DNA of 32,549 nucleotides from a virus: IMG/VR virus record IMGVR_UViG_3300037076_000265, positions 1 to 32,549 of that record. One strand, written 5' to 3'. Made by a program: the position numbers and the translations under genes. The notes beneath the pieces were generated by a model. The model did no database searches and was not told where the DNA came from. It saw nothing but the letters and a program-made list of their open reading frames with translations. Shown one piece after another: positions 7,050 to 32,500 of the stretch; the first letter of the stretch is position 1, and every line of letters starts with the position of its first letter.

Positions 7050-7150
7050 TACAAATCTGAAATACGGTCAACAACATTCGGTAACTTATTTTAGGGTGAT
7101 AAAACCGCGTAAAATGGGGCGTTTTTGGCGTCGTAATCCCATTGCGGTCG

Positions 7151-7169
7151 TGAATGTTCGCGCTTTTGT
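7151..7169 (+). repeat. 19-bp late-operon repeated element, copy 1
   Basis: TGAATGTTCGCGCTTTTGT, preceded by G. The in-frame GTG at 7150 gives V/M-N-V-R-A-F-V and the frame runs on past the next gene's ATG at 7176 before stopping. The element ends 6 bases before that ATG. It precedes the first gene of the late operon. Confidence 0.9.
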
Positions 7170-7175
7170 AGAAAT

Positions 7176-8183
7176 ATGTCTAAAAAAGCCACGATTGTAG
7201 GCACGACCGTCTTTGAATATCTGGAACGCTTCCCCGATCTGCCGAGCCGGAGCATCGCCCGCAAACTTAACGAGGATCACCCCCTTTTGTTTCCAGACAT
7301 TGATTCGGCGCGGTCTTCGATTCGCTATTTCCGGGGGCAGAATGGACAATTCGGGAGGAAGCACTGCTCCATTGGAAAATTTTACAAACCTGCGGGGTCA
7401 GTTTTAGATGGGTATATTCCACTGCCGCCACCGCTGGCAGATGACAAGCCGTGGGCCGTCGTGCCCCTGCAATTCAAACGCGCCCTTTTGATTTCCGACA
7501 TCCACGTTCCGTATCACAACGTCAATGCGTGCCGCCTGGCAATTCAACACGGCCTTAAACTTGGCGTGGATTGTGTGATCGTGAACGGCGACCTCTGCGA
7601 TTTCCACAGCGTCAGTTTTTGGGAGCGCGACCCGCGCCGGAGATTTCTGGTGGACGAACTGGAAAGCGCCCGCCGCTTTCTTGAAGTCTTGCGGGACACG
7701 TTCCCCAAGGCGCGGATTGTTTTAAAAGAGGGCAATCACGAGGAACGCTTATGGCGCTGGGTATGGGCGCGGGTGCCAGAGTTTGCCGGACTTAAGGAAC
7801 TTTCGCTAAACGAAATTCTTTACCTGCCCGATTACGGAATTGAACTGGTGGACAACAAAAAGCCGATTCGGTGCGCCAACGATCTGTACATTTTGCACGG
7901 CCATGAATTTCGCTCTCCCTTTCAAAATCCAGTCAACGCCGCTCGCGGGCTTTATCTGCGGGCGAATTGCAACGCCATTTGCGGCGACCTTCATCAGACC
8001 AGTCAGCACACGGGAACCGGATTGGAAAAAACGATATCCTGCTGGTCAGTGGGCTGCCTGTGTGATCTGCACCCGCGCTACATGCCGCTGAACAAATGGA
8101 ATCTTGGTTTTGCGTTCATCGAGATACTCAAGAAAAACTGGCGCGTTGAAAATTTCAAAATCATCAACGGGATGGTGGTTTGA
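7176..8183 (+). CDS. Calcineurin-like metallophosphoesterase
   Basis: 335 aa. The metallophosphoesterase motifs are all present in order: D108-I-H110, GDLCD at 138-142, GNHEE at 186-190, HGHE at 241-244 and GDLH at 270-273. The first ~100 residues form a separate region containing FPDLPSRSIARKLNEDHP, which resembles a winged-helix type start (inference). The enzyme should hydrolyse phosphomono- or diesters using two metal ions; the substrate is unknown, with nucleic acid ends or cyclic nucleotides as options. It is the first gene of the late operon and stands directly before the terminase genes, so a role in DNA end processing during packaging is possible. The ATG at 7176 follows the repeated element. 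Confidence 0.9.
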   Translation: MSKKATIVGTTVFEYLERFPDLPSRSIARKLNEDHPLLFPDIDSARSSIRYFRGQNGQFGRKHCSIGKFYKPAGSVLDGYIPLPPPLADDKPWAVVPLQFKRALLISDIHVPYHNVNACRLAIQHGLKLGVDCVIVNGDLCDFHSVSFWERDPRRRFLVDELESARRFLEVLRDTFPKARIVLKEGNHEERLWRWVWARVPEFAGLKELSLNEILYLPDYGIELVDNKKPIRCANDLYILHGHEFRSPFQNPVNAARGLYLRANCNAICGDLHQTSQHTGTGLEKTISCWSVGCLCDLHPRYMPLNKWNLGFAFIEILKKNWRVENFKIINGMVV

Positions 8184-8192
8184 GAGTTGCCA

Positions 8193-8840
8193 ATGGCCGT
8201 CACACCCAAACAGGCGAAGAAGTTGCTGGATGATAACTACCAGAACATTTCCAAGGCGTTGAAGCACGGGAAGGTTTTGACCACGGCGCAACTCACCCTG
8301 CTTCAAACACTCGCAGCCAAAACGGACGGCGACGAAAAGCCGGTAAAGAAATTTGCAAAGAACAAGGTTGAACTTTCCGTTCTACTTGGCGTCAACCGGC
8401 AGACAATCCACCGCTGGCTTAAAAAGGAGGGCAACCCCGGCTCGGAATCAAACGGCAGATTCAACGCCCTGCTCTGGACGCAGTGGGTCAAGGCGAACGG
8501 CCTGAAAATAATCAACGACACCGCGCCGGAAAAAAACGCCGTCCAGGTCCAGCAACTTCTGCTTCAAAACGAAAAGCTGAAATTCCAGATCGGCGTCTTC
8601 AAAAAGCAATATGTCCCCGCAGACGATGTGCAGAAATGGGGCGCGGAACTCGGCGGCGAGATTCGCAAGGCGGTGATCTCCATTCACAAGGCCGCGCCGT
8701 CGCTGGCCGGCCTGACGCCCGCAGAAATTGAGATTCGCCTGCGCGAGATGGAGGATGAAATCCTGATGAAGCTGCATTTGCTCGCGCAACGGGTTGAGGA
8801 AATGAAGGAAGTCACGAAGGAGGCGGCAGATGAAGAATAA
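8193..8840 (+). CDS. Terminase small subunit-like DNA-binding protein
   Basis: Start at the ATG at 8193 (MAVTPKQAKKLL); a TTG two codons upstream is also in frame. Residues ~50-85 contain a helix-turn-helix: VELSVLLGVNRQTIHRWLKK. The C-terminal half is a long helical region (VQQLLLQNEKLKFQ, then IEIRLREMEDEILMKL), fitting an oligomerising domain. This layout, HTH plus coiled coil just upstream of a GpA-type large terminase with an 11-bp overlap, is typical of small terminase subunits that recognise the packaging site. The exact family is not identified. Confidence 0.75.
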   Translation: MAVTPKQAKKLLDDNYQNISKALKHGKVLTTAQLTLLQTLAAKTDGDEKPVKKFAKNKVELSVLLGVNRQTIHRWLKKEGNPGSESNGRFNALLWTQWVKANGLKIINDTAPEKNAVQVQQLLLQNEKLKFQIGVFKKQYVPADDVQKWGAELGGEIRKAVISIHKAAPSLAGLTPAEIEIRLREMEDEILMKLHLLAQRVEEMKEVTKEAADEE

Positions 8841-10632
8841 CCCGCTCTTGAAAGGTTTTGGCGTGGCCATCCGCCCGCGTGAAAAGCTCTCGCCCTGGCA
8901 ATGGTGCGAGAAGCACGTTGTGGTTGACAAGACTTCGAGCATCGGCGGCGGCATGAAGTGGCGGCTGGATTCATCGCCCTGGGTGAAGGAGTTCATGGAG
9001 GTTTTCGCGGACAACCGGGTGGAAACGATTGTTATCCGCTGCGCGACGCAGAGCAGCAAGACTCAGACGTTGATTCTGTTGCTTTGTTGGGTGATCTCCG
9101 AAGACCCGGCTCCGACGCTTTGGGTGGCGAATGCCAAGGACGATTTGAAGCAGACGGTGAATGACCGTATCGGCCCGACGTTTGAGAAGTGCCGGCCCGT
9201 GGCGGAACAGATGCTTCGTTCCGGGGTGATGGAATACGAGTTCAGCACGATGAGCCTGTACTTCGCGGGCGGCGGCTCGAAGGGCAAGATGAAGTCCAAG
9301 CCGATACGCTGGTTGTTTCTGGATGAAGTCGAGGAAATCCCGGAGGCGAATGTTCACCAGGCGTTGGAACGCACCAAGGCACAGTGGAACAAACGGCGCG
9401 TGTTGCTTTCCACACCGAACATGAAAAACGGTTTGATGGAGCAATTTTTCCAGAAGGGCGACCAAAGGACGTTGCAATTCTGCTGCCCGCATTGCCGCCA
9501 GTATTCGCTGATAAAGTTCGAGCAATGGAAATGGGACACGAACGAGATCACGAAGCCGGACGGTAAGTGGAACTTTGACGTGCTGGCGGAAACGATTCGC
9601 TGGGAGTGCCCGGCGTGCAATGGCATCGTGCGGGACACGCCGTTTGACCGGCGCAAGCTGGCGCGGGAAGCGAAGTTCACGAAGTTGAACCCGTCCGCGC
9701 CGCATCATACCGTCAGCTTTACCTGGCCATCGCTGGTGACGCCCTGGGTGAAGTGGCGGGACGTGGTGGAAAAGTTTTTGAATGCGCGGCGGGCGGCGCG
9801 GAGCGGGAACATCGAACCGCTGAAATCTTTTGTGAACGACGACCTGGGCGAGCCGTGGGATGATTCGCTGGGGGTGATCGAGGACTTTGAATTTCTTGAG
9901 GCGCGGAAACAGGATTACGATTTCGGCGAAGTGTGGCCGGAGGAATCGGCGCGGTACATGAGCGCAGACCGGCAGGAAGCGGGCGGCGAACATTACTGGT
10001 ATGTGATCCGGGCGTTCGGGCCGTTCGGGAAGTCCCGGCTGATTACGTTCGGACGCTGCACGAGCACGCTGGAACTGGAAGAAGTGCGGCGGCGTTACAA
10101 TGTGCCGATTGAAAATGCGATGATTGATTCCGGTTTCAAGGCGAGCGAGGTCTATAAATTCTGCATGGCGGCGCGGTGGAAGGCGTTCAAGGGCGATGAC
10201 TCGGAGTATTTCCTTTTCCGCAATGTAAAGTTACAGAAGACGCTCCGACGCATTTGGGAGCGGTCATTTGTTGACCCGTACATGGGAACGGCGCTGGCGA
10301 AGAAACGGTCTATGCCGCTGTTCCGATTCTGCAACAACCCGACGAAGGATTTGTTGATCACATACATGAGCGGACTGATGGGGGAATGGACAATCCCGAA
10401 GACGACGCCCCGCGAATATCTGAAACAGGTAAGCGCGGAACGGCGCGAGGAAGTGGTGGACGGGCGCGGGCGCGTGCATTTTGTCTGGAAACGGCGGGTG
10501 CGGGACAACCATCTTTGGGATTGCGAACTGCAAATCATGGTGGCGGCGGTCATCAACAAACTGGCGACGGGCAAGCCGGGCGCGATTCCCGCAAAGTTGG
10601 TGGCGATACCCGAAAATAAAGAAACGGCGTGA
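8830..10632 (+). CDS. Terminase large subunit, GpA family
   Basis: 600 aa, the usual length for GpA-type terminases. The N-terminal ATPase shows SPWVKEFMEVF (49-59), a deviant Walker A CATQSSKT at 71-78 and Walker B LFLDEVEE at 162-169. A four-cysteine zinc site is formed by CPHC (219-222) and CPAC (260-263). The C-terminal nuclease region begins around YMSADRQ and includes MIDSGFKASEVYKF. The protein cuts concatemeric DNA and pumps it into the prohead; relatives such as lambda gpA use cohesive ends. It overlaps the small subunit gene by 11 bp. Its TGA is shared with copy 2 of the repeated element. Confidence 0.95.
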   Translation: MKNNPLLKGFGVAIRPREKLSPWQWCEKHVVVDKTSSIGGGMKWRLDSSPWVKEFMEVFADNRVETIVIRCATQSSKTQTLILLLCWVISEDPAPTLWVANAKDDLKQTVNDRIGPTFEKCRPVAEQMLRSGVMEYEFSTMSLYFAGGGSKGKMKSKPIRWLFLDEVEEIPEANVHQALERTKAQWNKRRVLLSTPNMKNGLMEQFFQKGDQRTLQFCCPHCRQYSLIKFEQWKWDTNEITKPDGKWNFDVLAETIRWECPACNGIVRDTPFDRRKLAREAKFTKLNPSAPHHTVSFTWPSLVTPWVKWRDVVEKFLNARRAARSGNIEPLKSFVNDDLGEPWDDSLGVIEDFEFLEARKQDYDFGEVWPEESARYMSADRQEAGGEHYWYVIRAFGPFGKSRLITFGRCTSTLELEEVRRRYNVPIENAMIDSGFKASEVYKFCMAARWKAFKGDDSEYFLFRNVKLQKTLRRIWERSFVDPYMGTALAKKRSMPLFRFCNNPTKDLLITYMSGLMGEWTIPKTTPREYLKQVSAERREEVVDGRGRVHFVWKRRVRDNHLWDCELQIMVAAVINKLATGKPGAIPAKLVAIPENKETA

Positions 10633-10648
10633 ATGTTCGCGCTTTTGT
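10630..10648 (+). repeat. 19-bp late-operon repeated element, copy 2
   Basis: TGAATGTTCGCGCTTTTGT, identical to copy 1. It begins exactly at the TGA stop of the terminase gene and ends 2 bases before the ATG of the next gene at 10651. The GTG at 10629 opens a small frame (V/M-N-V-R-A-F-V) that overlaps the beginning of the next gene. Confidence 0.9.
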
Positions 10649-10650
10649 GA

Positions 10651-11013
10651 ATGGCAGCGAACCGAAATCTTTTAATTCGGGCCGTCGTGCTCGCCGCTGT
10701 CCGCGCTTCGGGCGGTGACGCGGGTCAGACGACTCTCAAACCGGTGGCGATTCTGGAAGGGATTGTCACGGGCAAGTTCACTGCGGAGTTTTCCAACGGC
10801 AAGACGCTTATTTCCACCAGTGAGGCGGGCGGATCTGTTTCGTTCATGCTGCCAAGCGACTTTGGCCCCGCCGATGTGATGACGCTGGCGATGGAGGCGA
10901 TTCAACGCATCAAGGCAGGCGACTTTGGCCCGTCTGAAGACAACCTCGACCCCTACGCAAACTGGCCGCGCATCAAGCGGCTGAGGGTTTCGTTTGCAAA
11001 GGCAACTATATGA
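10651..11013 (+). CDS. Small head-module protein between terminase and portal, 120 aa
   Basis: Starts MAANRNLLIRAVVLAA and contains TTLKPVAILEGIVTGKFTAE, then GGSVSFMLPSDFGPADVMTLA and a basic C-terminus (RIKRLRVSFAKATI). It sits where lambda-like phages carry the head-tail joining protein gpW and may be its counterpart, although it is longer than gpW and I see no clear sequence match. It overlaps the portal gene start by 4 bp. Function assigned by position only. Confidence 0.65.
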   Translation: MAANRNLLIRAVVLAAVRASGGDAGQTTLKPVAILEGIVTGKFTAEFSNGKTLISTSEAGGSVSFMLPSDFGPADVMTLAMEAIQRIKAGDFGPSEDNLDPYANWPRIKRLRVSFAKATI

Positions 11014-12719
11014 GCGAGGCCGTGCCATTCAATCCGGCCTGGGCGGGTCTGCGAATTCAGTCAACGGTTTTGCCCGCGATTGTCCCGTCCATGCCGGGCG
11101 GACGGGCGCATGGCGGCGGCGTGCGTGCGGACACGTCAACGGCCAGTAATTTTGCGACGTCGCAACCGGCGGTAGTGAACGACGGCATGGGGAATTATCA
11201 CGAGGCGTTGCGGACGAGCAAGGACCGGACGGCCATCCCCTACGCAATGGTGCATTTACGGCCGCAAATTTTGCGGCTGTTGAACGGGTTGAACCGGAAG
11301 ATGCTGGCGGGCGTGGCGCGGTATCTGGTGGACAACAGCGGCGTGGCTTACTACGTGGTGAACCAGATCGCGGATTATTCCGTACCGGTGATTCCCCGGG
11401 CGCAGTGCGACGACGCAACTTTGCGGGACGTTTACAACGAATACTTCACGGCCTGGCAAAAGCGGTGCGACTTCACCCGGCGATTCACGTTCAAACAAAT
11501 CCAGCGGATGGCCTGTATTGCGATGGACGTGGACGGCGACCAGGGCGCGAGTTTCACGGACGAGGGAGGATTCCCGCAGTTGAAGATTTGGGACACGTTC
11601 CATATCGGCAAGCTGACGGGGATGGACCCGAAGGACGGCGTGGTGACGAACGATCTGAACGGGATGCTGCTGGGTTACAACGTGTGCGACGGGCCTATTG
11701 AGACGATCACCGGCGCGGCGTTGAAGACCATTCCGGCAGACCAGTTTTTTCTAATGTACGACGTTGACCGCTTCAACAATTATCGCGGGTTTTCCCCCAT
11801 TCGGCGCGGCAGCAACGATTTGCGCGACAAGAACGACCTGAAATCGTTTTTGAAGTTGAAGGAAAAAATCGGCGCGGCGCTGGCGGCGGTCATTCAACAG
11901 AACGGCTCGGTTGAAGAAGACGTTTGGGGCAATGACACCGGCGCGGAAGGCAACCAGCCCAAGAACAATAGCGACAATGAACTCCCGACGCAATCGGACA
12001 AGAAACTTTCGCTGGCGGAACTGCTCGGCGGCGACATCCCGGTGATTGAGGGTGAACTGAAACAGTTCATCGCGCAGGCGTTGAGCACGACCTCGCTGGA
12101 ATTTATGAACGCGCTGGACAGCCAGTTCGTTCTGGGCCTGGGGATTCCACCGGCGTTTTTTCTGGATGAAAAGTTGACCGGGCCGAACGTGCGGAGCGTG
12201 CTCGGCAAAGTCCAGAAGAAATTCAACAACCGCAAGGATACGATGGCGAACTTTGTGGAATGGTGCTGGCTGCGGGTCATCGCCTGGGGCATCGCCAAGG
12301 ACGGACTGCCGGCGTCGAAGGGCTGGCAGAAGATTTCATTCCAGTTCACGCCGCAAAGCACGATTGACCTGGGCGACACGATGGCGAACGAGCGGGCGGA
12401 CGTGCTGGTGGGGCAGATGAGCGAGACGAAGCGTTACGCGAATCGCGGCGAGGATTTTCAGCACGAGCACGAAATGATCAAGGCGGAAATTGCCATCAAG
12501 TTGAAGGAAGTCAAAGAACTCGCCACGGCATTTTCCACCGACCCCGCCGAACGGACGATGATAATTCCCGCGATTCTTTCCCGGTTTGGACTGGTGGGGC
12601 CGGTCAACACCCGACTGACGATTGGAGAGGCCGCAACGGAAACGGCCAACAACAACGCGAACAATAATGCTCCGGCACCGGAAAAGAAACCGGCTCCGGC
12701 ACCGGAGAAAAAGAACTGA
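11010..12719 (+). CDS. Portal protein, lambda family
   Basis: 569 aa. The sequence follows the lambda-type portal pattern: a conserved ARYLVDNSGVAYYVVNQI segment, then a wing/stem region with DGDQGASF, FFLMYDVDRFNNYRGFSPI (matching the family's 'R-x-x-Q-x-R-G-x-x' step), the helix with KLKEKIGAALAAVI, and the crown region with GIPPAFFLDEK. The C-terminal 25 residues are a Pro/Ala/Lys/Glu/Asn-rich tail (APEKKPAPAPEKKN). It forms the dodecameric ring through which DNA enters the head. Followed 3 bp later by the S49 protease, as in lambda (gpB-gpC). Confidence 0.9.
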   Translation: MSEAVPFNPAWAGLRIQSTVLPAIVPSMPGGRAHGGGVRADTSTASNFATSQPAVVNDGMGNYHEALRTSKDRTAIPYAMVHLRPQILRLLNGLNRKMLAGVARYLVDNSGVAYYVVNQIADYSVPVIPRAQCDDATLRDVYNEYFTAWQKRCDFTRRFTFKQIQRMACIAMDVDGDQGASFTDEGGFPQLKIWDTFHIGKLTGMDPKDGVVTNDLNGMLLGYNVCDGPIETITGAALKTIPADQFFLMYDVDRFNNYRGFSPIRRGSNDLRDKNDLKSFLKLKEKIGAALAAVIQQNGSVEEDVWGNDTGAEGNQPKNNSDNELPTQSDKKLSLAELLGGDIPVIEGELKQFIAQALSTTSLEFMNALDSQFVLGLGIPPAFFLDEKLTGPNVRSVLGKVQKKFNNRKDTMANFVEWCWLRVIAWGIAKDGLPASKGWQKISFQFTPQSTIDLGDTMANERADVLVGQMSETKRYANRGEDFQHEHEMIKAEIAIKLKEVKELATAFSTDPAERTMIIPAILSRFGLVGPVNTRLTIGEAATETANNNANNNAPAPEKKPAPAPEKKN

Positions 12720-12722
12720 TTT

Positions 12723-13556
12723 ATGATTCACACAAATTTCATCAAGCGGCTGGCGGTGGATTTGCCGTTGCTCAACGCGAACCATCTGGCGTTCATGCTT
12801 ACCCGGCAACGCGGCGACGATGTGAACATGGCCGAGCCGGAGTTGTTCAAGAAGATTCGCGGCCAGCTTGAGCCGAAGATGGAGCGCGTCAAAAACATAG
12901 CCATCGTTCCGGTGCAGGGCGTGCTGGCCTATAACCCGGACTTGATGGAGTTGATCCATGACGGCGTGGAAGATTCGCGGGCGGTTTTGAAGACGCTGAA
13001 CGAGGCGGCGGACGACGAAAGCATCGAGGGCGTCCTGCTCCGCATGGATTCACCGGGCGGCATGATGCTGGGCGGGCCGGAAATGGCGGACGCGGTGGCG
13101 GCAATGAAGACGAAGAAACCGGTCATCGCTCACATCGGCGGACTCGGCGCGAGCCTTGGCTACATGATTGCGTCACAGGCAACGGAAGTGATTGCCAACC
13201 GGAGCGCGATTGTGGGGAGCATCGGGGTGATCGCCAGCGTGACGGATTACACGGCGCTGCTAGAAAAAATCGGCATCAAGTTTGAGTATTTCACGAACAA
13301 GGAAGCGAAGTTCAAGGCGGCGGGAGCAATGGGAACTTCATTGTCGGAAGACCAGAGGACGCAGTTGCAATCCTCGGTGGATGGAGCGTTTCAGGTCTTC
13401 AAAGGCGCGGTCCTTTCCGCCCGGCCCGGTGTGCCGGAATCGGCAATGCAGGGGCAGACATATCGCGGCGCGGAAGCGAAAAGCGTGGGGCTGGTTGACC
13501 GGGTGGGCACGGAAAGTTTCGCCCTGTCGGTTCTGAAATCTTACATGAAAAATTGA
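12723..13556 (+). CDS. S49-family head maturation protease (SppA/gpC-like)
   Basis: 277 aa. The serine protease core is visible: VKNIAIVPVQGVL, RMDSPGGMMLGG near 107-118, and the nucleophile Ser144 in GGLGASLGYM. The catalytic Lys lies in AKFKAAG (K196 or K198; the second aligns better with SppA). It has no signal peptide, unlike host SppA. Between portal and capsid genes it should trim head proteins during prohead maturation, as lambda gpC does. The frame lacks an obvious embedded scaffold; the next gene may supply it. Confidence 0.9.
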   Translation: MIHTNFIKRLAVDLPLLNANHLAFMLTRQRGDDVNMAEPELFKKIRGQLEPKMERVKNIAIVPVQGVLAYNPDLMELIHDGVEDSRAVLKTLNEAADDESIEGVLLRMDSPGGMMLGGPEMADAVAAMKTKKPVIAHIGGLGASLGYMIASQATEVIANRSAIVGSIGVIASVTDYTALLEKIGIKFEYFTNKEAKFKAAGAMGTSLSEDQRTQLQSSVDGAFQVFKGAVLSARPGVPESAMQGQTYRGAEAKSVGLVDRVGTESFALSVLKSYMKN

Positions 13557-13563
13557 GCTTGAA

Positions 13564-13582
13564 TGAATGTTCGCGCTTTTGT
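13564..13582 (+). repeat. 19-bp late-operon repeated element, copy 3
   Basis: TGAATGTTCGCGCTTTTGT, identical to copies 1 and 2. Here the start codon of the encoded peptide is ATG (13563-13565) instead of GTG, so coding M-N-V-R-A-F-V is preserved. The small frame continues for 22 codons and stops at 13629-13631, just past the ATG of the next gene at 13624. This is the only copy not next to a stop or within 6 bases of a start. Confidence 0.9.
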
Positions 13583-13623
13583 GAAAGACGGTAACTGCGG
13601 TGAAAAACTCAACTTAAATTTTT

Positions 13624-14073
13624 ATGCCTGAAAAACCTGACCAGGGCGACGTGGTTGCCCAACTCGCAACGGCCAATGCCGAACTTGCTTCCTTGAAGGC
13701 GACGGGAAAAACGGCGGCGGTTTTGATTTCCGAACACGGCACGCTTACTGCCGAAGTCGCCCGCCTGACGGGTGAAACCAAAAAGTTGTCCGGTGACAAC
13801 GCGAAGCTGGTTGCGGGCGCGACAGTTCCGGCTGATCTGGTTTCCGCCGGCAACGCGATTTTCAGCCTCACCGTCGAGCGCGACAATTTGAAGGCGGTAT
13901 CGGCCAGCGTTGAAACGGCTGTGGCGAAGGAAGTGGCCAAGCTCGGTTTCACCAGCAAGGAAACCAAGGCTGAAGTCGCGGACAAAGCCAAGGGGCCGAC
14001 GCTTACCGAAAAGGTTCTCGCCAAAAAGGGCGTGAAGACGCTCGCGGAACTCGAAGCGAAACGCATCGAATAA
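13624..14073 (+). CDS. Coiled-coil head protein, probable scaffold
   Basis: 149 aa, Ala/Lys/Glu-rich and largely helical. The N-terminal 60 residues have heptad-like spacing (VVAQLATANAELASLKATG, then GTLTAEVARLTGETKKL). The C-terminus is basic (LAKKGVKTLAELEAKRIE). Placed between the head protease and the major capsid protein, it fits a scaffolding protein that is later digested, or a capsid accessory protein. Assigned by position and composition only. Confidence 0.65.
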   Translation: MPEKPDQGDVVAQLATANAELASLKATGKTAAVLISEHGTLTAEVARLTGETKKLSGDNAKLVAGATVPADLVSAGNAIFSLTVERDNLKAVSASVETAVAKEVAKLGFTSKETKAEVADKAKGPTLTEKVLAKKGVKTLAELEAKRIE

Positions 14074-14110
14074 TTTTTTAACCAAAAAATAACCTCAACC
14101 ACCAAAGCCT

Positions 14111-15163
14111 ATGCCAGTAATCATTTCCGATCTGTGGACGCCAGCAATTTGGGTGCAAGCCATGCGCGAACGCCAGGCGACGTTTCCTTCACTGTTCCTG
14201 TCCGGCGCAGTCGTGCGGTCTGATTTGTTTGACAGCATCGCCAGCGGCGCGGGCACGAGCGCGAACTGTCCATTCCTGAAGGACATCACCGACCAGGTGG
14301 ATGAAATCCAGGTGGAAGACACCGCGCCGGTCACTGACAACGGGCAGGCCGGGGCCACACAGATTTTCCCGCTGTTGAATCGCGTGACGAAAAACAGCGT
14401 AGGCGCACTCGCCGCGCAGGTATCGGGCGTTGATCCGATGTCGGCCATCATTGACCAACTGGTCATGCGCCGGCTGAAACAGCGGCAGACAACGTTGCTG
14501 GCTCAGTTGCGCGGGTTGTTCGCCACGGGCGCGACGGTGAATGGCGCGGCCTGCGCGTTGTCCGCAGCCCGGCTTGGCGGGACTGTCTCGGAACCGTTCA
14601 TCGAAAACGGTTTACAGGCGACGGGCGACAATTTGATTGACCCGGACAAGATGATTGATTGCGGGGCGCTGATGGGGGAATTGGAAGACGACATGAAGGA
14701 CGGCTTCCTGTTCATGCACCCGAACATCAAGGCGCGGCTCCGCAAACTGGACCGGCTGAATTTCAAAACGACCGTGATGCCGAGCGAACTTCCGTTCACG
14801 ATTGATTCGTATTGCGACATGCCGATTGTCACCAGTGTCGGACTGGTTCGCGCCGGCACGGGCAACGGCTACGTGTACGACACGTACATGGTGTCGAAGG
14901 GCGTCATCGGCTACGGCGAGAAACCGCAGCAAGGCGACGTGCGCGACACGGCATCGTTGAGCTATTTCTTCGACCGCGACAAAAACAACGACCTGATTTG
15001 GGACCGCAGCCGGCTCATGCTGGGCATGAACGGCACCCGCTGGGGCGGCTCTCCCGGAGGCCAGTCGGCCACCAACGCGGAGTTGCAGGTTGTGGCAAGC
15101 TGGACGCTGGTGTACGCAAGCGCGAACCGCGTCGGCATCACTTGTTTGCGGACGAACGGTTAA
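14111..15163 (+). CDS. Major capsid protein
   Basis: 350 aa. Begins MPVIISDLWTPAIWVQAM and contains features typical of a HK97-fold coat protein of the 'phage coat protein' type: an N-terminal arm, LRKLDRLNFK, the central SELPFTIDSYCDMPIV segment, GYVYDTYMVSKGVIGYGE and a C-terminal ASWTLVYASANRVGI. Position after the protease and scaffold and its size agree. A short A-rich leader (AACCAAAAAATAACC) precedes it. The capsid would be assembled from hundreds of copies, so this should be the most abundant product of the operon. Exact family not resolved by eye. Confidence 0.85.
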   Translation: MPVIISDLWTPAIWVQAMRERQATFPSLFLSGAVVRSDLFDSIASGAGTSANCPFLKDITDQVDEIQVEDTAPVTDNGQAGATQIFPLLNRVTKNSVGALAAQVSGVDPMSAIIDQLVMRRLKQRQTTLLAQLRGLFATGATVNGAACALSAARLGGTVSEPFIENGLQATGDNLIDPDKMIDCGALMGELEDDMKDGFLFMHPNIKARLRKLDRLNFKTTVMPSELPFTIDSYCDMPIVTSVGLVRAGTGNGYVYDTYMVSKGVIGYGEKPQQGDVRDTASLSYFFDRDKNNDLIWDRSRLMLGMNGTRWGGSPGGQSATNAELQVVASWTLVYASANRVGITCLRTNG

Positions 15164-15196
15164 TCGCACCGGACGGCCAGCGGAAACCAGACCGAC

Positions 15197-15210
15197 GCCC
15201 GTAGGCGGGC
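15197..15210 (+). promoter_or_regulatory. Short GC-rich hairpin upstream of 15220 gene
   Basis: GCCCG-TAGG-CGGGC, a 5-bp stem with a 4-base loop, is followed by AGATTTTCT and then the ATG at 15220. It could be a weak terminator after the capsid gene or a structure limiting translation of the following gene relative to the capsid. Small, so uncertain. Confidence 0.3.
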
Positions 15211-15219
15211 AGATTTTCT

Positions 15220-15786
15220 ATGCCAAAAAAAGAAGATTGGAACGTTGAGGATGCGGAAGACCTGGGAACAGGCCAGCCCGCCGCCAACGTACCTGCGCCG
15301 GGCGTCAGGGCGAAGTCTATCTATCGGGATACGACCACACCCACGCCGGAATCCACGCACGGAGGGATTGAGGACGCGGGCGGCGCGAAGTCGGACGCTG
15401 CGCCGGAACCGGATTTCGGCAGGGATTTTCCGTCCAGGTTCGATGAGAAATTTTCCGACGCCCTGCAACAGAGCTACACCATTTTGCGGGCGGTCCGCGC
15501 CCTGCCGGAACGCACCCGGAAACAGGCAACGGAAAAGGCGCGGCGGGCCGGGTTGATCTCGGCGCATATCCGCAAGATTTCAAATGCGTCGCCGGTCATT
15601 CAGTTTCAGGCGGACGAACAGGCCGTGGCGCAGAAGAATCACGGCGCAATTTTGGAACGCCAGCGACTTGAGCATCTGGCCGTTCATGACCCGCTGGTGA
15701 AGAAATTTCTCACAAATTACGACCGGCAGGCCGGCAGAATAGTCGAATTGCTGGACGAAAACGCAGCGTTGAAAAATCAAAAATAA
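15220..15786 (+). CDS. Hypothetical head-module protein, 188 aa
   Basis: The N-terminal ~70 residues are acidic and disordered-looking (Gly/Ala/Pro/Asp). The rest is helical, with FDEKFSDALQQSYTILRAVRALPERTRKQ, and ends in a short coiled-coil stretch (IVELLDENAALKNQK). It follows the major capsid gene, where lambda has the DNA-stabilisation/connector gene FI, so a head-completion role is possible. No family recognised. Confidence 0.65.
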   Translation: MPKKEDWNVEDAEDLGTGQPAANVPAPGVRAKSIYRDTTTPTPESTHGGIEDAGGAKSDAAPEPDFGRDFPSRFDEKFSDALQQSYTILRAVRALPERTRKQATEKARRAGLISAHIRKISNASPVIQFQADEQAVAQKNHGAILERQRLEHLAVHDPLVKKFLTNYDRQAGRIVELLDENAALKNQK

Positions 15787-15798
15787 CAAACCAAGTTT

Positions 15799-16344
15799 AT
15801 GAACAAAAAAATCGCATCCATTCTTTTCGGTCTTGTGTTGGCCCTGGCCATGGTGTTGCCGGTGCAGGCGCAGAAAGCCGGTGTCCAGACTCTACTTGGC
15901 GGCGGCAATTCCATCCTGCCGGCCACCACGACAAATCTATTTGTTGCAACCGGGTCCGCGACAAACCAGTTTGGCGCTCCGCAAACCTGGACTATGACCA
16001 GCAGCAACCTGACGATGACCGTTGCTGAATTCGACAACGTGGGGCTGTCGTGGCATTTCACGGGGTTTTCATCCGGCGCAACCAATGCGACCGTAGTTTT
16101 GAGGGTGTATAAATCCTATGACAATGCCGCCACTTGGGATGTAATTCCGAGTTATATTTACTCCATCACCCCCGGCAATGCCGATGGGACCACGCCTCTA
16201 GGCACCAATGCCAACCTCTCCTGTACCGGGGCTACGCACATTGGATTCGAGGTTGAAAACAACGTAGCCGTTTTGGAGACGAACGTGCAACTGAGAGTCA
16301 ATTTGAAGTCGCCGAAGTATGGGGCAAGACAGGCGACGCAGTGA
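15799..16344 (+). CDS. Secreted or virion beta-rich protein with Sec signal peptide
   Basis: 181 aa. A clear signal peptide is seen: MNKK, a hydrophobic core (ILFGLVLALAMVLP) and a cleavage site after VQA at residue ~25. The mature part is Thr/Asn/Ser-rich and beta-strand-like, with VVLRVYKSYDNAATWDVIPSY, a pattern seen in immunoglobulin-like or decoration domains. It is similar in style to the protein at 22966-23370. A signal peptide is unusual on a gene located in a head module; it could be a periplasmic or surface protein made in the infected cell, or a virion decoration exported unusually. No family name is offered. Confidence 0.7.
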   Translation: MNKKIASILFGLVLALAMVLPVQAQKAGVQTLLGGGNSILPATTTNLFVATGSATNQFGAPQTWTMTSSNLTMTVAEFDNVGLSWHFTGFSSGATNATVVLRVYKSYDNAATWDVIPSYIYSITPGNADGTTPLGTNANLSCTGATHIGFEVENNVAVLETNVQLRVNLKSPKYGARQATQ

Positions 16345-16350
16345 TTTAAG

Positions 16351-16427
16351 CGCGGGGTGGAGCAGTCTGGTAGCTCGCTTGGCTCATAACCAGGAGGCCG
16401 TTGGTTCAAATCCAACTCCCGCAACCA
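16351..16427 (+). tRNA. Initiator-type tRNA-fMet (CAT)
   Basis: 77 nt, folds as a full cloverleaf: acceptor CGCGGGG/TCCCGCA, D-stem GAGC/GCTC, anticodon stem CTTGG/CCAGG with loop CTCATAA (anticodon at 16385-16387), T-arm GTTGG-TTCAAAT-CCAAC, and encoded ACCA. Initiator hallmarks are present: the unpaired C1-A72 and the A11-T24 pair; much of the sequence matches the E. coli fMet tRNA from memory. One hallmark is altered: the three G-C pairs of the anticodon stem are T-A, G-C, G-C. It is inside the phage late operon, right after the 15799 gene, and just before a strong terminator. Confidence 0.9.
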
Positions 16428-16465
16428 AGTGTTGGTGCAGTTGTTGTCAGTTGATTGTTTGTGCG

Positions 16466-16498
16466 AACCCCGCTCGCTGAAAGGCGGGCGGGGTTTTA
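16466..16498 (+). terminator. Rho-independent terminator after the tRNA
   Basis: AACCCCGCTCGC pairs with GCGGGCGGGGTT over 12 positions (one G-T pair) with a 6-base loop TGAAAG, followed by TTTTAATTTT. It lies 39 bp after the tRNA and 13 bp before the next gene. It probably ends the head transcript, so the following genes would need their own promoter or readthrough. Confidence 0.8.
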
Positions 16499-16510
16499 AT
16501 TTTAAAAAAT

Positions 16511-16969
16511 ATGAGAGAAAAAATCAGTCTGGGATTCAGCAATGATGAACGAATCGGCAGGCTCGAAACATCAGTCGAGGGTCTGCATAGTGAGTTCTCC
16601 GACATTCGCATCACGTTGCGAACGATTGAGGCGGCTATTAGCCGTTCCAAAGAGACCAATTGGAGCGTTATCCTGGCCGGCATTGCCATCGTTGGTTCGC
16701 TCTGGCTAGCCGCTATCCGTCCGATCACTCAGGACATCGAGCGGCAGAATGCCACTGCCAAGGACATTGCCACGGCGGTTCTAGTCAAGGAGGAAAAGAT
16801 AACCGCGCAGCGGATTGATTTTGAACGGCTGTCGAAAGACGTTGAAAGCCTTCAATCCCTGGTGACGGGCGTACACAAAGGCGGTTCTGCCGACGTGGCC
16901 GGGCGTCTATCTCTGCTTGAATTTCAGTTGAAAGAAATGGAACCGGGCAAGAACCAAACCGCCAAGTGA
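16511..16969 (+). CDS. Membrane-anchored coiled-coil protein, possible lysis-module protein
   Basis: 152 aa. The first ~45 residues are a helical, cytoplasmic-type segment, followed by one membrane helix (WSVILAGIAIVGSLWLAAI, about residues 51-69) and a long coiled coil (KDIATAVLVKEEKI, then LSLLEFQLKEM). This single-pass plus coiled-coil layout is often seen in phage membrane proteins beside holins and endolysins. Its stop overlaps the GTG start of the next membrane protein. It may be a holin, an inner spanin or an inner membrane partner. No family recognised. Confidence 0.7.
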   Translation: MREKISLGFSNDERIGRLETSVEGLHSEFSDIRITLRTIEAAISRSKETNWSVILAGIAIVGSLWLAAIRPITQDIERQNATAKDIATAVLVKEEKITAQRIDFERLSKDVESLQSLVTGVHKGGSADVAGRLSLLEFQLKEMEPGKNQTAK

Positions 16970-17235
16970 ACGACATCCCCATCATCAATTTTCTGCCGGT
17001 GAAGTATCGCGGGTGGGCAATCATCCTGGTGCTGGCTTTCCCGTATCTCACGCGGGCGTACCGGGCACTGACAAACAGCGGCGGTCTTCGCGGGGCGTGG
17101 AACGCAATCTTGTTCGGCACGAACACGCCGCCTGAGGTCAAGTCCGCAATCGCTGAAATTGGCACGGCGGTTAATACGATCAACCAGACCGGCATTAACC
17201 CGGACGCCGTTCCGGTGGTGAGCAAAATAATTTGA
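16966..17235 (+). CDS. Small membrane protein, candidate holin
   Basis: 89 aa from a GTG at 16966, which overlaps the previous stop (GTGA). One hydrophobic segment, GWAIILVLAFPYLTRAY, lies at residues ~16-32, with polar sequence on both sides and a C-terminal GAWNAILFGTNTPPEVKSAIAE. Size and single membrane segment suit a class III-like holin, and it stands close to a predicted peptidase. Assigned by topology and position, not homology. Confidence 0.6.
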   Translation: MNDIPIINFLPVKYRGWAIILVLAFPYLTRAYRALTNSGGLRGAWNAILFGTNTPPEVKSAIAEIGTAVNTINQTGINPDAVPVVSKII

Positions 17236-17271
17236 ACCGCGTAAAATCCCGCATCGCGGGATCACGCGGTT
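17235..17271 (+). terminator. Strong stem-loop after candidate holin gene
   Basis: AACCGCGT (17235-17242) pairs with ACGCGGTT (17264-17271), and inside it ATCCCGC pairs with GCGGGAT around an ATC loop. The combined stem has about 15 pairs with a small bulge. It is followed by TGG then A-rich sequence rather than a T-tract, so it is more likely a transcript-stabilising or processing hairpin than an efficient plus-strand terminator. Confidence 0.5.
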
Positions 17272-17307
17272 TGGAAAAAACAACAAAACCAAAAAGGAAA
17301 ACTGAAA

Positions 17308-17796
17308 ATGAAAAATAAAATCCGTCTCATGTCCATCGCATTGCTTGGCCTCATGGCCGCAATCCTGCTCCCCGCGTGTAACACCGCGCCCCGGCGCGAC
17401 ATCATCGCGGTCAAATCCACTGTGCTCGGCTTCGACGTTTCAGCCGATGCGGTGTCGCAAATTCCACATGTCAGACTCGGCTTGGTACGAAACTTCTATC
17501 AGATGATTCCGGTGGCCATCGGCAGTTCATCGAACACACTTGCTTCAGTTCAGACTCCAAACTATGCAACCAGCATGGCTGCGGATATGGGGCTGACTTC
17601 ACAGCAGGGCGCGGAAGAATTTGCCACGGGCAACGCGGCTGACTTGCAATCCAAGGGCGCAACTACCGCCCAGATCGGAGCGGCCAAGCTGCGTGGCACG
17701 GCATTGGTGCTGACTGGACTCTCGCCCGCAGTAGCAGGCGCTGCGTCGGGGGTTATTACCAACATCATTCCCGTCACCAACACGAACGCACCGTAG
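17308..17796 (+). CDS. Predicted lipoprotein, 162 aa
   Basis: Begins MKNKIRLMSIALLGLMAAIL with lipobox LPAC (Cys24), then NTAPRRD, a charged start to the mature protein. A Shine-Dalgarno-like AAGGAAA lies upstream of the ATG. The mature part has a beta-like FYQMIPVAIGSSS section and an Ala/Gly/Thr-rich helical section with two hydrophobic stretches. It could be an outer-membrane lysis component (o-spanin-like) or a lipoprotein that changes the infected cell surface. Lipid attachment is predicted from the motif only. Confidence 0.65.
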   Translation: MKNKIRLMSIALLGLMAAILLPACNTAPRRDIIAVKSTVLGFDVSADAVSQIPHVRLGLVRNFYQMIPVAIGSSSNTLASVQTPNYATSMAADMGLTSQQGAEEFATGNAADLQSKGATTAQIGAAKLRGTALVLTGLSPAVAGAASGVITNIIPVTNTNAP

Positions 17797-17874
17797 TCGT
17801 TCGTGAATGATAAACCTTTAACTGCTATGCGCCTGCCGTTCGTTCATCGGGCGGCGGGCGCGGCACTCAAACAA

Positions 17875-18480
17875 ATGAAAAAAACTCTCATTCTTTTATC
17901 AGCAGCCTTGCTGACATTCGTAGCGGTCAATGCTCAGGCTACGATCACCGTAGCCCAACCAACCGTGACCGTCCCGTCAACGTGGGTCATTTCAGATGTT
18001 CGGGCGGTGCGGACTGAATCGCATCAGGCAGCCGGATATACTTCGGCGCAAATCACCACCTACGATGCAAGCGGCGCAATCGTGGACGCCAGACTGTTTA
18101 CACCGGCTGATTCTTCGTTCGGGAATACCGTCTTCGTAAACTTGCTTGCTCCGGGCCAGTGGCTCTATGAGAAATCCACAGACGGGGTGACGTATTACAA
18201 CGTCGGTGGAAGTCAAGAGGATGCCAACGGCAATCAAATTATGCTCACTGGCGGCACCGGAATGTTTATTCAGGTCGGCATCGCCGCGCGGCCGGGTTCA
18301 CCGGAAGTTTGGGGCCGAGCCACCCTTAAAAGTGTGCCTGCACCAACTCCCGCGCCCGTGCCGGCCATTACTCCGGCGGCGGTCAAGCAGATCACGAACA
18401 ACGTGGCGGTTTTGCAATCGAACGTTGCCAGCCTACAAAAAGATGTTGCCGCCTTGAAGAAGAAAAATGGCCTGAAATAA
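17875..18480 (+). CDS. Secreted beta-rich protein with C-terminal coiled coil
   Basis: 201 aa from the ATG at 17875; the open frame extends to 17803 but that start lacks a signal peptide at its terminus. The product begins MKKTLILLSAALLTFVAVNAQA, a clear signal peptide with cleavage after AQA. Residues ~25-155 are beta-rich (STWVISDVRAVR, WLYEKSTDGVTYYNVGG). A Pro/Ala linker (PAPTPAPVPA) leads to a coiled coil (VAVLQSNVASLQKDVAALKKK). This looks like a trimeric surface or virion protein. Unknown family. Confidence 0.7.
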   Translation: MKKTLILLSAALLTFVAVNAQATITVAQPTVTVPSTWVISDVRAVRTESHQAAGYTSAQITTYDASGAIVDARLFTPADSSFGNTVFVNLLAPGQWLYEKSTDGVTYYNVGGSQEDANGNQIMLTGGTGMFIQVGIAARPGSPEVWGRATLKSVPAPTPAPVPAITPAAVKQITNNVAVLQSNVASLQKDVAALKKKNGLK

Positions 18481-18487
18481 ATCGAAC

Positions 18488-18946
18488 ATGCGAATCCTGC
18501 TTTGGACAAATGAACCCGGACAGCTTGGCAGCGGCGCGATTGCGTTTCTATCGCACGGCAACGTGACGCACATGGGGTTTGAGAGGGCCAATGGCAAGGT
18601 GCATGAACTATCGCCACCAGGGGTGCATGACCGTGACTTGCTGGACTCGGAACGGCCGTTCGTGCATGCGTTCAGGCTCGAAGGGATTTCGGAGCACATG
18701 GAGTCGCAGCTTGAACGGCTGTTCGGCCTGAACATAGCGGCGGGCATAAAGTATTCCTACGAGGATTTATTGCGGTATGAGTTCAACATAGCGATGGACG
18801 GCGACCAGGCATCCTATTGCTCGCGCTATGGGATGCACTGCCTCGCGCTTTGCAAGTGTCCGCTGCCACTGGTGCGGTGTACGCAGGATCAGGGGACACC
18901 GTGGGATTTTTGGCGAAGTCCGAGACTGATTGAGGAACCGCTGTGA
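18488..18946 (+). CDS. Permuted NlpC/P60-like cysteine peptidase/amidase
   Basis: 152 aa. It has the order of circularly permuted NlpC/P60 (YiiX/YaeF-type) enzymes: an N-terminal beta unit with catalytic-type His28 in GNVTHMGF, an acidic residue in VHEL (Glu40) and a later Cys111 in ASYCSRYG. Such enzymes cleave amide bonds in peptidoglycan or related substrates. Located beside two membrane proteins and a lipoprotein, it is a candidate endolysin or cell-wall-active protein, but it has no signal peptide, so it would need a holin. An acyl-modifying role cannot be ruled out. Confidence 0.75.
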   Translation: MRILLWTNEPGQLGSGAIAFLSHGNVTHMGFERANGKVHELSPPGVHDRDLLDSERPFVHAFRLEGISEHMESQLERLFGLNIAAGIKYSYEDLLRYEFNIAMDGDQASYCSRYGMHCLALCKCPLPLVRCTQDQGTPWDFWRSPRLIEEPL

Positions 18947-21285
18947 AAACCATGTTTCGATTTCTCGCGGTTGTTTTGCTTCTGTCGTTTCGCGGGTGCG
19001 AGACGTGCCCGGCGTCGGACGTGGTGTTCAACGGATTCACGGATAAGAACGGCACGCCGATGAACCGCACGGCGTCGCTGACACTGTTGAACCAGCCGAT
19101 TTACAACGGCGTGGGATTGACCTACGACGCGACGGGGACGTACCCGATGACGAACTTCACGGTGACGGTTTCAAATCTCGCTGGCGGCAATTACGCGCTA
19201 TCGCTGGCGGGCCTGAATCGCATCCTAGGTCTGGCCGTGCCGAACGACACGAACACTTATCAGTTCATGCAGTTGGTGACGAATCAGTTGCCGACACTAT
19301 CCACGACACTGTTGATCAACTACCAGTTTGACACGAACTTTTTTATCATCGTCAGTAACGGCGTGGTGACCCTGAATACTAATCTACTTGGTGTCGGAAA
19401 TACGAATGCCGTGACAAACAATCAGCCGAGCGTCACATTTGGGAAAAATTACAGCATATTGGCGACTTTATCTTCAGTGCCAGACCACCAAACAATTATT
19501 CAAAGTTTTGATGGTAGAATAAATTTGCAGATTGATAATTCTACTGATCCCGGTTGGCATTTTACGGGAGATATTGTTACAGATGCCGGGGTTACTGCGA
19601 CAAATTTCATCGGGAACGGCCATCTGTTAACCCATCTTCAAGCCGCGAACTTGGATGGGGTGGTGCCGACCAACAATCTCCCCATGTCGCAACTCGGCGG
19701 TGGAAGCGGAACCTATGATTACAACAGCCTGAGCAACACTCCCACGCTCGGCAACGCGGCGAGCGCGAACACGAACGCGATGAAGGTTTTAGCTGCGACC
19801 AACGCAGACTATGCGACCGACCTTGGCACGAATGCTTTTGACCGGCAATGGAACCGGAACTCAGCCACCGGCGCCGTCGCCAGCGCAACCACGGCGGGGA
19901 CGGCGACGAATATATATGGGGGCTTTGGCACTTACATCGTCAAAACGAATGGCTGGTACGCGCCTTCAGGCATCTGGCACTCAGAGACTAATGCTGGCAA
20001 CTCCCTTCAACACGCCCTTGATTATTCTTCCATTTTCAATACCAACGATGCTTTTTTCACATATTTAACTGGCACCAATATGTGGTTTGATGGCGTGGAT
20101 TATACATTGCCGTATTATCATGTTGATTTAATCCAGCTGCCGTATCCGATGGGTGGAAAATTTGAAATTGCTGCTGGTGATTATTACCGGCCGCAAGGGT
20201 TCACAATCAGCAACAACCTCCAGACTGGCAGCTGGTGTTTAATTGGTACTGGTGCAGGGACAAGACTCATTGGAGATACAAATGTAATAAGCCCTGCGAT
20301 TGTTTATTTTGATAACGACATTCCGGCTGCGCTGAAAATTGAACTGGACAGCCTCACCTTTCTGTCAAAAACAAACCAATGTGGATTGCAGGTTAATCTA
20401 TACCTTTCGGCACAGGATACTTATGTACACGACTGTTATTTCTCCATGTACAACTGGTGGAATTTTGCCTTAGACCATGGGATGCCATTTGAGGACGCTC
20501 GCTACATAACTGAACCACCGGGAATGATAGGGCTTGAACTTGATGGCATGATGGGGAATGGAACGGCTCGTAAGAATCGTTTTTATGGTTTAGCCATAGG
20601 TATGATAGCGGGTGGAGAGAGCACATACGTTGAAGAAAACAGTTTTTATTCAATGAGCGAATGGAACGGTCACCTTACCAATTTGTGGTCTACTACCAAT
20701 CAGCTTTACATACCGTGTGTGCCAGGCAGTGAAGCGTATGCGCTCAGTCATTTACAAGGAGCAGAGTTATCCTTTGGTTGTGCACTGGTTATAAATCCAA
20801 TGCCCAAAAGTTGGGTAAGTAGAAACTTTTTCTTTGATGGTGGACATAGTATTTATATTGGGAAGTCTGGAGCGACGACTGTTGCTGACACGCACATCAT
20901 CGAAAACTCTTTCCAAGAGTTTGTAGTCTCCGGTGGTGGCACAATTCTGTATTGGACAAACAACTATTCCAATGTCAATTCTCCAAAATTCATCAATAAT
21001 AAATTTAGAACTGCTGGCAACTCCCAAGTTGGAACAATCAACTGGAACGGAACCAGTTTCCCTATAAGCACCAACATTGTTACTTTGTCTCCAGTTATCA
21101 ACATCACCGATGATGTCACAGAGGATTCATCGGGTATTGTACATGCAACTGGATTCGCTGGCAGCGGGATCGGTCTGAATCTCGGCGGATTCACTGGCAC
21201 GGCGACCAACGGCTTTGGGACTGCTGTCACTAATAGGCAGGTCATGGTCAACGGCATCGTAACCACCAATATACCGCATCAATAA
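18943..21285 (+). CDS. Large beta-helix surface/tail-spike-like protein with N-terminal signal
   Basis: 780 aa from a GTG that overlaps the previous stop (GTGA). The N-terminal ~25 residues (MKTMFRFLAVVLLLSFRGCE) look like a signal or lipoprotein signal. Residues ~219-246 contain ATNFIGNGHLLTHLQAANLDG, a linker common in tail and adhesin proteins. From ~485 to 690 the sequence has right-handed beta-helix repeats: YVHDCYFSMYNWW, ARKNRFYGLAIGMI, VEENSFYS, VSRNFFFDGGHSIYIG, IIENSFQEF and INNKF. Such folds form polysaccharide-binding or -cleaving spikes. The AT content rises in the second half (see findings). It could be a receptor-binding protein or a secreted glycan-active protein. Confidence 0.75.
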   Translation: MKTMFRFLAVVLLLSFRGCETCPASDVVFNGFTDKNGTPMNRTASLTLLNQPIYNGVGLTYDATGTYPMTNFTVTVSNLAGGNYALSLAGLNRILGLAVPNDTNTYQFMQLVTNQLPTLSTTLLINYQFDTNFFIIVSNGVVTLNTNLLGVGNTNAVTNNQPSVTFGKNYSILATLSSVPDHQTIIQSFDGRINLQIDNSTDPGWHFTGDIVTDAGVTATNFIGNGHLLTHLQAANLDGVVPTNNLPMSQLGGGSGTYDYNSLSNTPTLGNAASANTNAMKVLAATNADYATDLGTNAFDRQWNRNSATGAVASATTAGTATNIYGGFGTYIVKTNGWYAPSGIWHSETNAGNSLQHALDYSSIFNTNDAFFTYLTGTNMWFDGVDYTLPYYHVDLIQLPYPMGGKFEIAAGDYYRPQGFTISNNLQTGSWCLIGTGAGTRLIGDTNVISPAIVYFDNDIPAALKIELDSLTFLSKTNQCGLQVNLYLSAQDTYVHDCYFSMYNWWNFALDHGMPFEDARYITEPPGMIGLELDGMMGNGTARKNRFYGLAIGMIAGGESTYVEENSFYSMSEWNGHLTNLWSTTNQLYIPCVPGSEAYALSHLQGAELSFGCALVINPMPKSWVSRNFFFDGGHSIYIGKSGATTVADTHIIENSFQEFVVSGGGTILYWTNNYSNVNSPKFINNKFRTAGNSQVGTINWNGTSFPISTNIVTLSPVINITDDVTEDSSGIVHATGFAGSGIGLNLGGFTGTATNGFGTAVTNRQVMVNGIVTTNIPHQ

Positions 21286-21330
21286 ATTTATGACACCATC
21301 CGAAAACAGACCTTTACGCCGCTGATTAAA

Positions 21331-21675
21331 ATGGCTTCAACTCCTTACACGATCTCCGAGCAGGCCCGGCTAGCCGGATTCATTGCGAACCTCGCCATCC
21401 GGGGCCGGGCGATGACGACGGACACGGGCGAGACGGTAAAGGTGCTGGTTCAGAACGCCGTGCCATTGCCGGAATTGGACAAGCCCGCCCGGACCGAGAA
21501 GATGGTGTATGCAATTATCACATGCCTGGCCGGGGCGCTGAAAGACCCAAGGGCGGTCGGGAATTTTATCGAGGGAACGGCACCGAACACGACGACGCAC
21601 AACGTCCTTTGCTACGACGAGACGAGCGGGGACCGGGTGACGTGGAAATTTGAAGTGGGAACGCAGAGGGCGTGA
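21331..21675 (+). CDS. Head-tail/tail completion candidate, 114 aa
   Basis: Begins MASTPYTISEQARLAGFIANLA and has ETVKVLVQNAVPLPELDKPARTEK near the middle, ending DRVTWKFEVGTQRA. Size and place (start of the tail module, upstream of completion proteins) resemble lambda gpFII, but no sequence identity is claimed. Its TGA is the first three bases of copy 4 of the repeated element. Confidence 0.6.
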   Translation: MASTPYTISEQARLAGFIANLAIRGRAMTTDTGETVKVLVQNAVPLPELDKPARTEKMVYAIITCLAGALKDPRAVGNFIEGTAPNTTTHNVLCYDETSGDRVTWKFEVGTQRA

Positions 21676-21691
21676 ATGTTCGCGCTTTAGT
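21673..21691 (+). repeat. 19-bp late-operon repeated element, copy 4 (one mismatch)
   Basis: TGAATGTTCGCGCTTTAGT, one base different from the others (A for T at position 17). It starts on the stop codon of the 21331 gene. The GTG at 21672 is in frame with the next gene, giving M-N-V-R-A-L-V-G before the ATG at 21696. Confidence 0.9.
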
Positions 21692-32424: not shown

Positions 32425-32500
32425 TGGTGGAGCCGACAGGAATCGAACCTGCGACCTTCTCATTGCGAACGAGACGCTCTGCCAACTGAGCTACGACCCC
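32425..32500 (-). tRNA. tRNA-Ala (CGC)
   Basis: 76 nt on the minus strand. Acceptor GGGGTCG/CGGCTCC includes the G3-T70 wobble that defines alanine tRNAs. D-arm GCTC/GAGC, anticodon stem TCTCG/TGAGA with loop TTCGCAA (anticodon CGC), T-arm GCAGG-TTCGATT-CCTGT, and an encoded CCA are all present. It stands 151 bp from the start of the integrase gene and so is the probable integration target. Beyond it (32501-32549) I see nothing identifiable. Confidence 0.93.

Follow-up and report, generated by a model that had tools for sequence, protein, structure and literature searches.

What is the function of a short sequence that recurs, always in one orientation, where one late gene of a virus gives way to the next? 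The question is raised by IMG/VR virus record IMGVR_UViG_3300037076_000265, a linear record of 32,549 bases (the whole of which we refer to as the window) that consists of a leftward early block, encoding an AAA ATPase, a ligase-like protein, and others, and a rightward late block from position 7176. The 19-bp element TGAATGTTCGCGCTTTTGT is found in the window as three exact copies and one copy with a single mismatch, exclusively on the (+), or late, strand. Copy 1 (7151–7169, exact) lies 6 nt 5′ of the first late gene (ATG at 7176), in the gap between the leftward early and rightward late blocks. Copy 2 (10630–10648, exact) begins on the TGA stop codon of the terminase large subunit gene, which ends at 10632, and itself ends 2 nt before the ATG of a connector-like gene at 10651. 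Copy 3 (13564–13582, exact) is located between the head protease gene and a scaffold/decoration-like gene, 41 nt before the ATG at 13624. Copy 4 (21673–21691, one mismatch) is found in the tail block, where it begins on the TGA stop codon of gene 21331–21675 and ends 4 nt before the ATG at 21696. An original prediction, made from the sequence of the window, had described these four copies at late gene boundaries on one strand, two of them beginning on an upstream stop codon and three ending a few bases before the next ATG, as well beyond chance, and all of this is borne out: the chance expectation for TGAATGTTCGCGCTTTTGT is 0.05 on the basis of dinucleotide shuffles, and four copies were reached in 0 of 100 shuffles. 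No further match with up to three mismatches is present on either strand of the window, and an independent repeat search recovered the same repeat family.

We conclude that the element is a real, old, and family-wide regulatory site of late genes. Judging from its sequence context, we lean toward its being a phage-specific late promoter, which is also the best supported of the four functions that the prediction had offered.

Conservation and co-evolution of the element

Related phages were gathered by terminase, capsid, protease, and portal searches and comprise L006, L007/L008, L009, L012/L013 (L012 and L013 are identical over 9,879 bases), L014, L015 (a prophage-like contig in a Verrucomicrobiales metagenome-assembled genome, or MAG), L018, and L019, with L054–L071 more distant. 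The exact 19-mer occurs in a single IMG/VR record beyond the window, the near-identical contig L005, in which copies 1 and 2 are found at the same places. The related phages harbor a diverged form of the element, with AACGTTCCCGCTTTTGTGA as core consensus, at the same junctions, typically in 3 to 6 copies and in a single orientation, and these junctions are occupied across about 20 phages whose terminases are roughly 35 to 60% identical. The spelling varies by phage: L006 carries TAGGCGTCCCCGCTTTTAT, L008 GTAGCGTTTCCGCTT, L009 CTGACGTTCCCGCTT, L014 GATAACGTTCCCCATTTTAT, L015 CTGACGTTTCCTCTTAAGT, L018 GATAGCGTTCCCGCTTTTA, and L019 CTGAATGTTCGCACTTTTGTG. The distant L061–L065 contain forms such as GAAGCGTAACGTTCCCGCTCGGGCGTG and GCGTAACGTTCCGCCTTTAGTATG in four to six copies each, except for L064 with one recognized copy, and in this group the element precedes terminase, connector, protease, and decoration genes. 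L070 is spelled ATCCGAACGTCGCCCCTTAAGTGTG; L054, L055, L059, and L060 bear further forms, and elements are present in L084 and L085 as well. A palindromic core, AACGTT, was weighed and dropped, the whole site being asymmetric.

Placement at gene boundaries holds with few departures, some copies being located in the 3′ part of a gene in L061, L062, and L065. This location is what one would expect of a boundary sequence kept for modular recombination, or of the small mobile repeat that had been among the four options, as is the arrangement in L009, where a 605-amino acid gene inserted between the protease and decoration genes has its own element copy and is thus flanked by two. Neither idea predicts one spelling per genome or a single orientation, and the positions are conserved across deep divergence, with the same junctions held in phages whose terminases are about 40% identical; we regard this explanation as very improbable. 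The same spelling was not seen in the distant relatives L011, L029–L033, L068, and L071. Unrelated junction repeats are present in L068 (at about 9520 and 12300), L071 (at about 9530 and 12340), and L011 (at 15303 and 20634), namely GGCAAAGGTTGACA, TTAACGATTYNAGTYAT, and AGTTGACTYAACCCACGA, and these phages look as though another specificity had taken the place of the element.

Since the motif family was first noticed by eye, the weight matrices used for scanning omit the genome being scanned. This leave-one-genome-out scan at 13 bits gave 22 matches in seven phages, every one of them on the late strand; in the window it returns exactly the four copies described above, with shuffled sequences giving 0.1 to 1.6 matches per genome for both strands together. 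Over 21 nt, copies from one genome have an identity of 0.79, as against 0.60 for same-junction copies from different genomes (a difference matched in 0 of 5000 permutations), and in 21 genomes the terminase–connector and protease–decoration junctions share longer words within than between genomes (0 of 20,000 permutations), figures that describe the pattern and not independent trials, given the kinship of the phages and the inheritance of sites at any one junction. One spelling per genome is as expected for sites that track one trans-acting factor. In the 6.9-Mb host MAG of L015, the L015 spelling with up to two mismatches is found at four places, all on the prophage contig and in one orientation; at three mismatches, two further matches appear, as compared to three for a reversed control pattern. 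A phage-encoded factor is therefore probable; failing that, the site is no common host signal.

Terminators, spacing, and signals in the RNA

The surroundings of the element bear directly on what it does. The element 5′ of TerS, the first packaging gene, in L018 has an intrinsic terminator (fold z −4.3) ending 21 nt upstream of its GTT, and strong terminator hairpins lie about 90 to 150 nt 5′ of the TerL element in L062, L063, and L065, with a weaker hairpin at the same place in L061. Transcription must therefore restart in those gaps; the order terminator–element–gene is seen in L018, L062, L063, and L065, and not in every phage or at every copy. Furthermore, in the window, L013, and L014 alike, the element heads the late block with leftward early genes as its neighbors, so that copy 1 and its L013 and L014 counterparts occupy the place where a late promoter must be. 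The gene inserted in L009, having an element of its own, likewise favors a promoter. These observations also bear on a stoperator-like operator, that is, an asymmetric site bound by a phage repressor or late regulator that would block or modulate elongation through the late block in the lysogen. Asymmetry, orientation with transcription, short gaps, one drifting spelling per genome, and an integrase-bearing phage would all suit such a site. Against it stand the small number of copies (3 to 6 per genome), all in the late block, the early strand of the window having yielded none, a nearly fixed spacing of 14 to 16 nt at the connector gene that an operator does not require, and the terminators immediately 5′ of some copies, where transcription must begin and not merely stop. 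We consider an operator of this kind unlikely.

Spacing between element and start codon is informative with respect to both transcription and translation. With the G of GTT as origin, the start codon of the connector gene lies 14 to 16 nt downstream in all 12 phages measured, and that of the decoration gene 24 to 55 nt downstream at the protease–decoration junction of all relatives measured; offsets range overall from 9 to 80 nt, with a mode of 14 to 16 nt. Such open-ended spacing fits a transcription start, which need only be upstream; for a translation signal, a constant distance would be expected. We take this argument as supportive and not decisive, in that the lower bound may merely reflect an element that fills the noncoding gap. 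An element that acts in the mRNA at the start of the next gene, by recruiting ribosomes or as the target of a phage RNA-binding protein, would be in keeping with the start codon found 14 to 20 nt after GTT in most copies, with a gap devoid of any Shine–Dalgarno-like sequence, and with the initiator-like tRNA that several phages, including that of the window, appear to encode. The distances of 24 to 55 nt at every protease–decoration junction measured speak against such a role, as does the element consensus, which has no apparent complementarity to the 16S rRNA tail. More telling are L014 and L015, where a strong hairpin terminator separates the element from the first long late gene (spacing of 80 nt in L014); a terminator in this position makes little sense for a translation signal and corresponds to the order promoter–leader–terminator. 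A translation element of this type is, in our assessment, improbable.

The prediction had also proposed that each copy encodes a conserved heptapeptide, MNVRA(F/L)V, as the leader of a termination–reinitiation mechanism. The frame, (M/V)-N-V-R-A-(F/L)-V, is indeed present in all four window copies, and the small frame overlaps the next start. It is not conserved in the relatives: a start codon is found at the beginning of the heptapeptide in 4 of 46 sites, all four in the window, and in-frame stops interrupt the peptide in 8 of the 46, so that variation among homologs retains the DNA and neither the start codon nor the reading frame. A leader peptide is thus refuted as a conserved feature, and we find it scarcely credible as the function of the element.

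A signal at the level of the RNA, be it a processing hairpin (an RNA processing site was another of the functions first offered), a weak terminator, or an antitermination site, would draw on the ability of some copies, such as window copy 2, to fold into a small hairpin with a U run behind it. When folded singly, window copy 2 reaches −9.2 kcal/mol (z −2.0), and the L065 and L062 copies fold no better than shuffles (z −0.3 and +0.8, respectively). Across copies, a five-pair hairpin is paired in 64.8% of cells versus 63.9% in shuffles, with one pair changed on both sides; no covariation, that is, no compensatory base change, was found in the element hairpin, and an Rfam search returned tRNAs only and nothing at the element. 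We therefore view an RNA-level function as quite unlikely.

A promoter model and its candidate reader

As a late promoter, the element would comprise about 20 bp with the core RACGTTCCCGCTTTTRTGA, of which the GTT and CTT parts are strongest. One copy opens the late block and others precede the connector, scaffold/decoration, and tail genes; distant relatives add copies 5′ of terminase and protease genes. Aided by a phage factor that modifies or directs it, host RNA polymerase would, we infer, begin new transcripts at these elements, with the transcript start at or just past the 3′ end of the element. Messages for connector-type genes would then be almost leaderless, and that for the decoration/capsid unit would carry a 5′ leader of about 15 to 40 nt. 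The site would be recognized by a trans-acting phage factor whose specificity differs between phages, which would explain the shared spelling within one genome.

A candidate for this factor is a small helix-turn-helix (HTH)-like protein whose gene is located at the first element in several relatives. The protein has roughly 145 to 240 residues, about 110 of which form a conserved core, and an HTH is predicted. It is found in 10 records (L006, L012, L014, L062, L063, L065, L070, L060, L084, and L085), with a weak match in L068. In L062, L063, L065, L070, L084, L085, and L060/L090, its gene extends into an element or borders one. The protein may be the reader of the element. The L012 gene is located past a block homologous to the early block of the window, and its counterpart would thus fall outside our record, which is probably cut before it; the absence of the gene from the window is not informative. 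A second protein, of 106 amino acids with a zinc ribbon and a GerE/sigma-region-4-like part, is encoded in the early region of the L012 virus (L040, 12672–12992, (−) strand). The zinc-ribbon/GerE protein in G009 was considered as a late factor and set aside, there being no clear counterpart in other records.

A number of observations weigh against a promoter read in this way. About 24 positions hold the information in the element, with no further conserved block within 40 nt of it; lacking a second conserved hexamer over this distance, the element is not a sigma-70-type bipartite promoter, which would have two hexamers 16 to 18 nt apart. In L018, the gap between terminator and element contains TAAGAT, noted by eye, and a host promoter is possible there. 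Within the window, a strong intrinsic terminator at 16465–16496 (+), after the tRNA gene described below, is followed by a gene at 16511 with no recognizable element. In GC-rich relatives, the 3′ half of the element is CTCGGGCG and not CTTTTGTG, so that not all of the phages have an AT-rich opening region. A translation-linked signal would likewise fit the short distance to start codons. The AlphaFold model of the HTH candidate, helical and best at the HTH, is poor overall (mean pLDDT, the per-residue confidence score, of 59), and a fold search of the PDB with the candidate gave no significant match, with DNA-binding HTH proteins recurring in the list. Finally, a single-subunit, T7-type RNA polymerase (PF00940) was not found in 19 records, an absence that is weak, given that the records are mostly incomplete and that the control genomes gave no positive either.

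A broader and more tentative proposal, which we hold to be possible but rather doubtful, is that these sites of about 20 bp represent an undescribed class of transcription-start signal that involves neither a sigma-70 layout nor a phage RNA polymerase; small HTH-like late factors of a new family would read these signals, which would start near-leaderless virion mRNAs in a wide family of uncultured phages (with Verrucomicrobiota hosts where known), in a spelling specific to each phage. The element provides a sequence handle on late-gene switching in a large uncultured phage group in which regulation is almost unknown, marks probable operon starts in metagenomic phage genomes, and forms part of a testable regulator–site pair whose specificity has diverged many times. 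If the sites are indeed promoters whose transcripts begin next to the ATG, leaderless translation of phage virion genes in Verrucomicrobiota becomes directly testable.

The genes behind the element are those of a tailed-phage late block on the (+) strand. A metallophosphoesterase (7176–8183; PF00149, phrog_221) is followed by the terminase small subunit (8187–8840; phrog_57), a GpA-type terminase large subunit (8830–10632; PF05876, PF20454), a small gene in the connector position at the junction (10651–11013), the portal protein (11010–12719; PF05136), the head maturation protease (12723–13556; phrog_53), a gene in the scaffold/decoration position (13624–14073), and the major head protein (14111–15163; phrog_247); the tail-block gene behind copy 4 spans 21696–22493. 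A scan of the window for sigma-70 promoters showed no excess over shuffles. A tRNA-Met (CAT) gene lies within the late block at 16351–16427 (+) in the window, and at 14075–14151 in L006, 8928–9002 in L008, and 8249–8325 in L019. Kept in these four phages, it has C1 opposite A72 and a CAT anticodon, both initiator-like, and two G–C pairs adjoining the anticodon loop, where initiator tRNAs usually carry three; by these features it would be a phage-encoded initiator-like tRNA. At the right end of the window, an integrase gene (31230–32273, (−)) adjoins a tRNA-Ala gene (32425–32500, (−)), a neighborhood that is probably the attachment site. No stretch of at least 12 bases of the tRNA was found in positions 1–2000, and the left boundary is thus probably missing from the window. 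The extreme left end (1–198) consists of two identical 66-base units and a third partial one, and may lie in a repeat-protein gene or be an assembly artifact.

Comparison with known phage systems

Three known systems, and one repeat in a distant relative, invite comparison. The start-associated sequences (SAS) of cluster K mycobacteriophages contain a Shine–Dalgarno core, typically lie 3 to 7 bp from the start codon, and are confined to the nonstructural half of the genome (PMC3203893). Like the element, SAS are short, asymmetric repeats immediately before start codons, with one main orientation and rare in the host genome (PMC3203893); the element differs in that it lacks a Shine–Dalgarno core, has open-ended spacing, and serves virion genes. 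The stoperators of cluster A mycobacteriophages are 20 to 30 asymmetric sites spread genome-wide and include early operators (PMC6550527). They share with the element asymmetry, orientation with transcription, and a genome-specific spelling (PMC6550527), whereas the element has 3 to 6 copies (four in the window) that are confined to late genes, a near-fixed spacing to some starts, and terminators upstream.

Verrucomicrobia phage P8625 (NC_029047.1; L051), a distant relative, carries a palindrome-like sequence, GTATCCANNNATTGGATAC, at 5426, at 10750, and in other late gaps, before start codons. Both this sequence and the element are repeated before the start codons of late genes, but the two sequences are unrelated; a term search of the P8625 genome paper turned up no such repeat (PMC4642752).

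By analogy, T7-type phage promoter sets appear to behave most like the element among the known kinds. The element phages depart from the T7 family in that they bear integrases, a GpA-type terminase, and a lambda-type portal, in that a weak search found no single-subunit RNA polymerase, and in that the 3′ half of the element is not AT-rich in GC-rich relatives. A likeness in register, aligned by hand, places CGCTTTT/GTG of the element against CACTATA/GGG of T7. What the element shares with the late promoters of the T7 family is the overall design: an asymmetric site of about 20 bp, present in several late copies, in one orientation, before structural genes, and with one spelling per phage, in step with a trans-acting factor.

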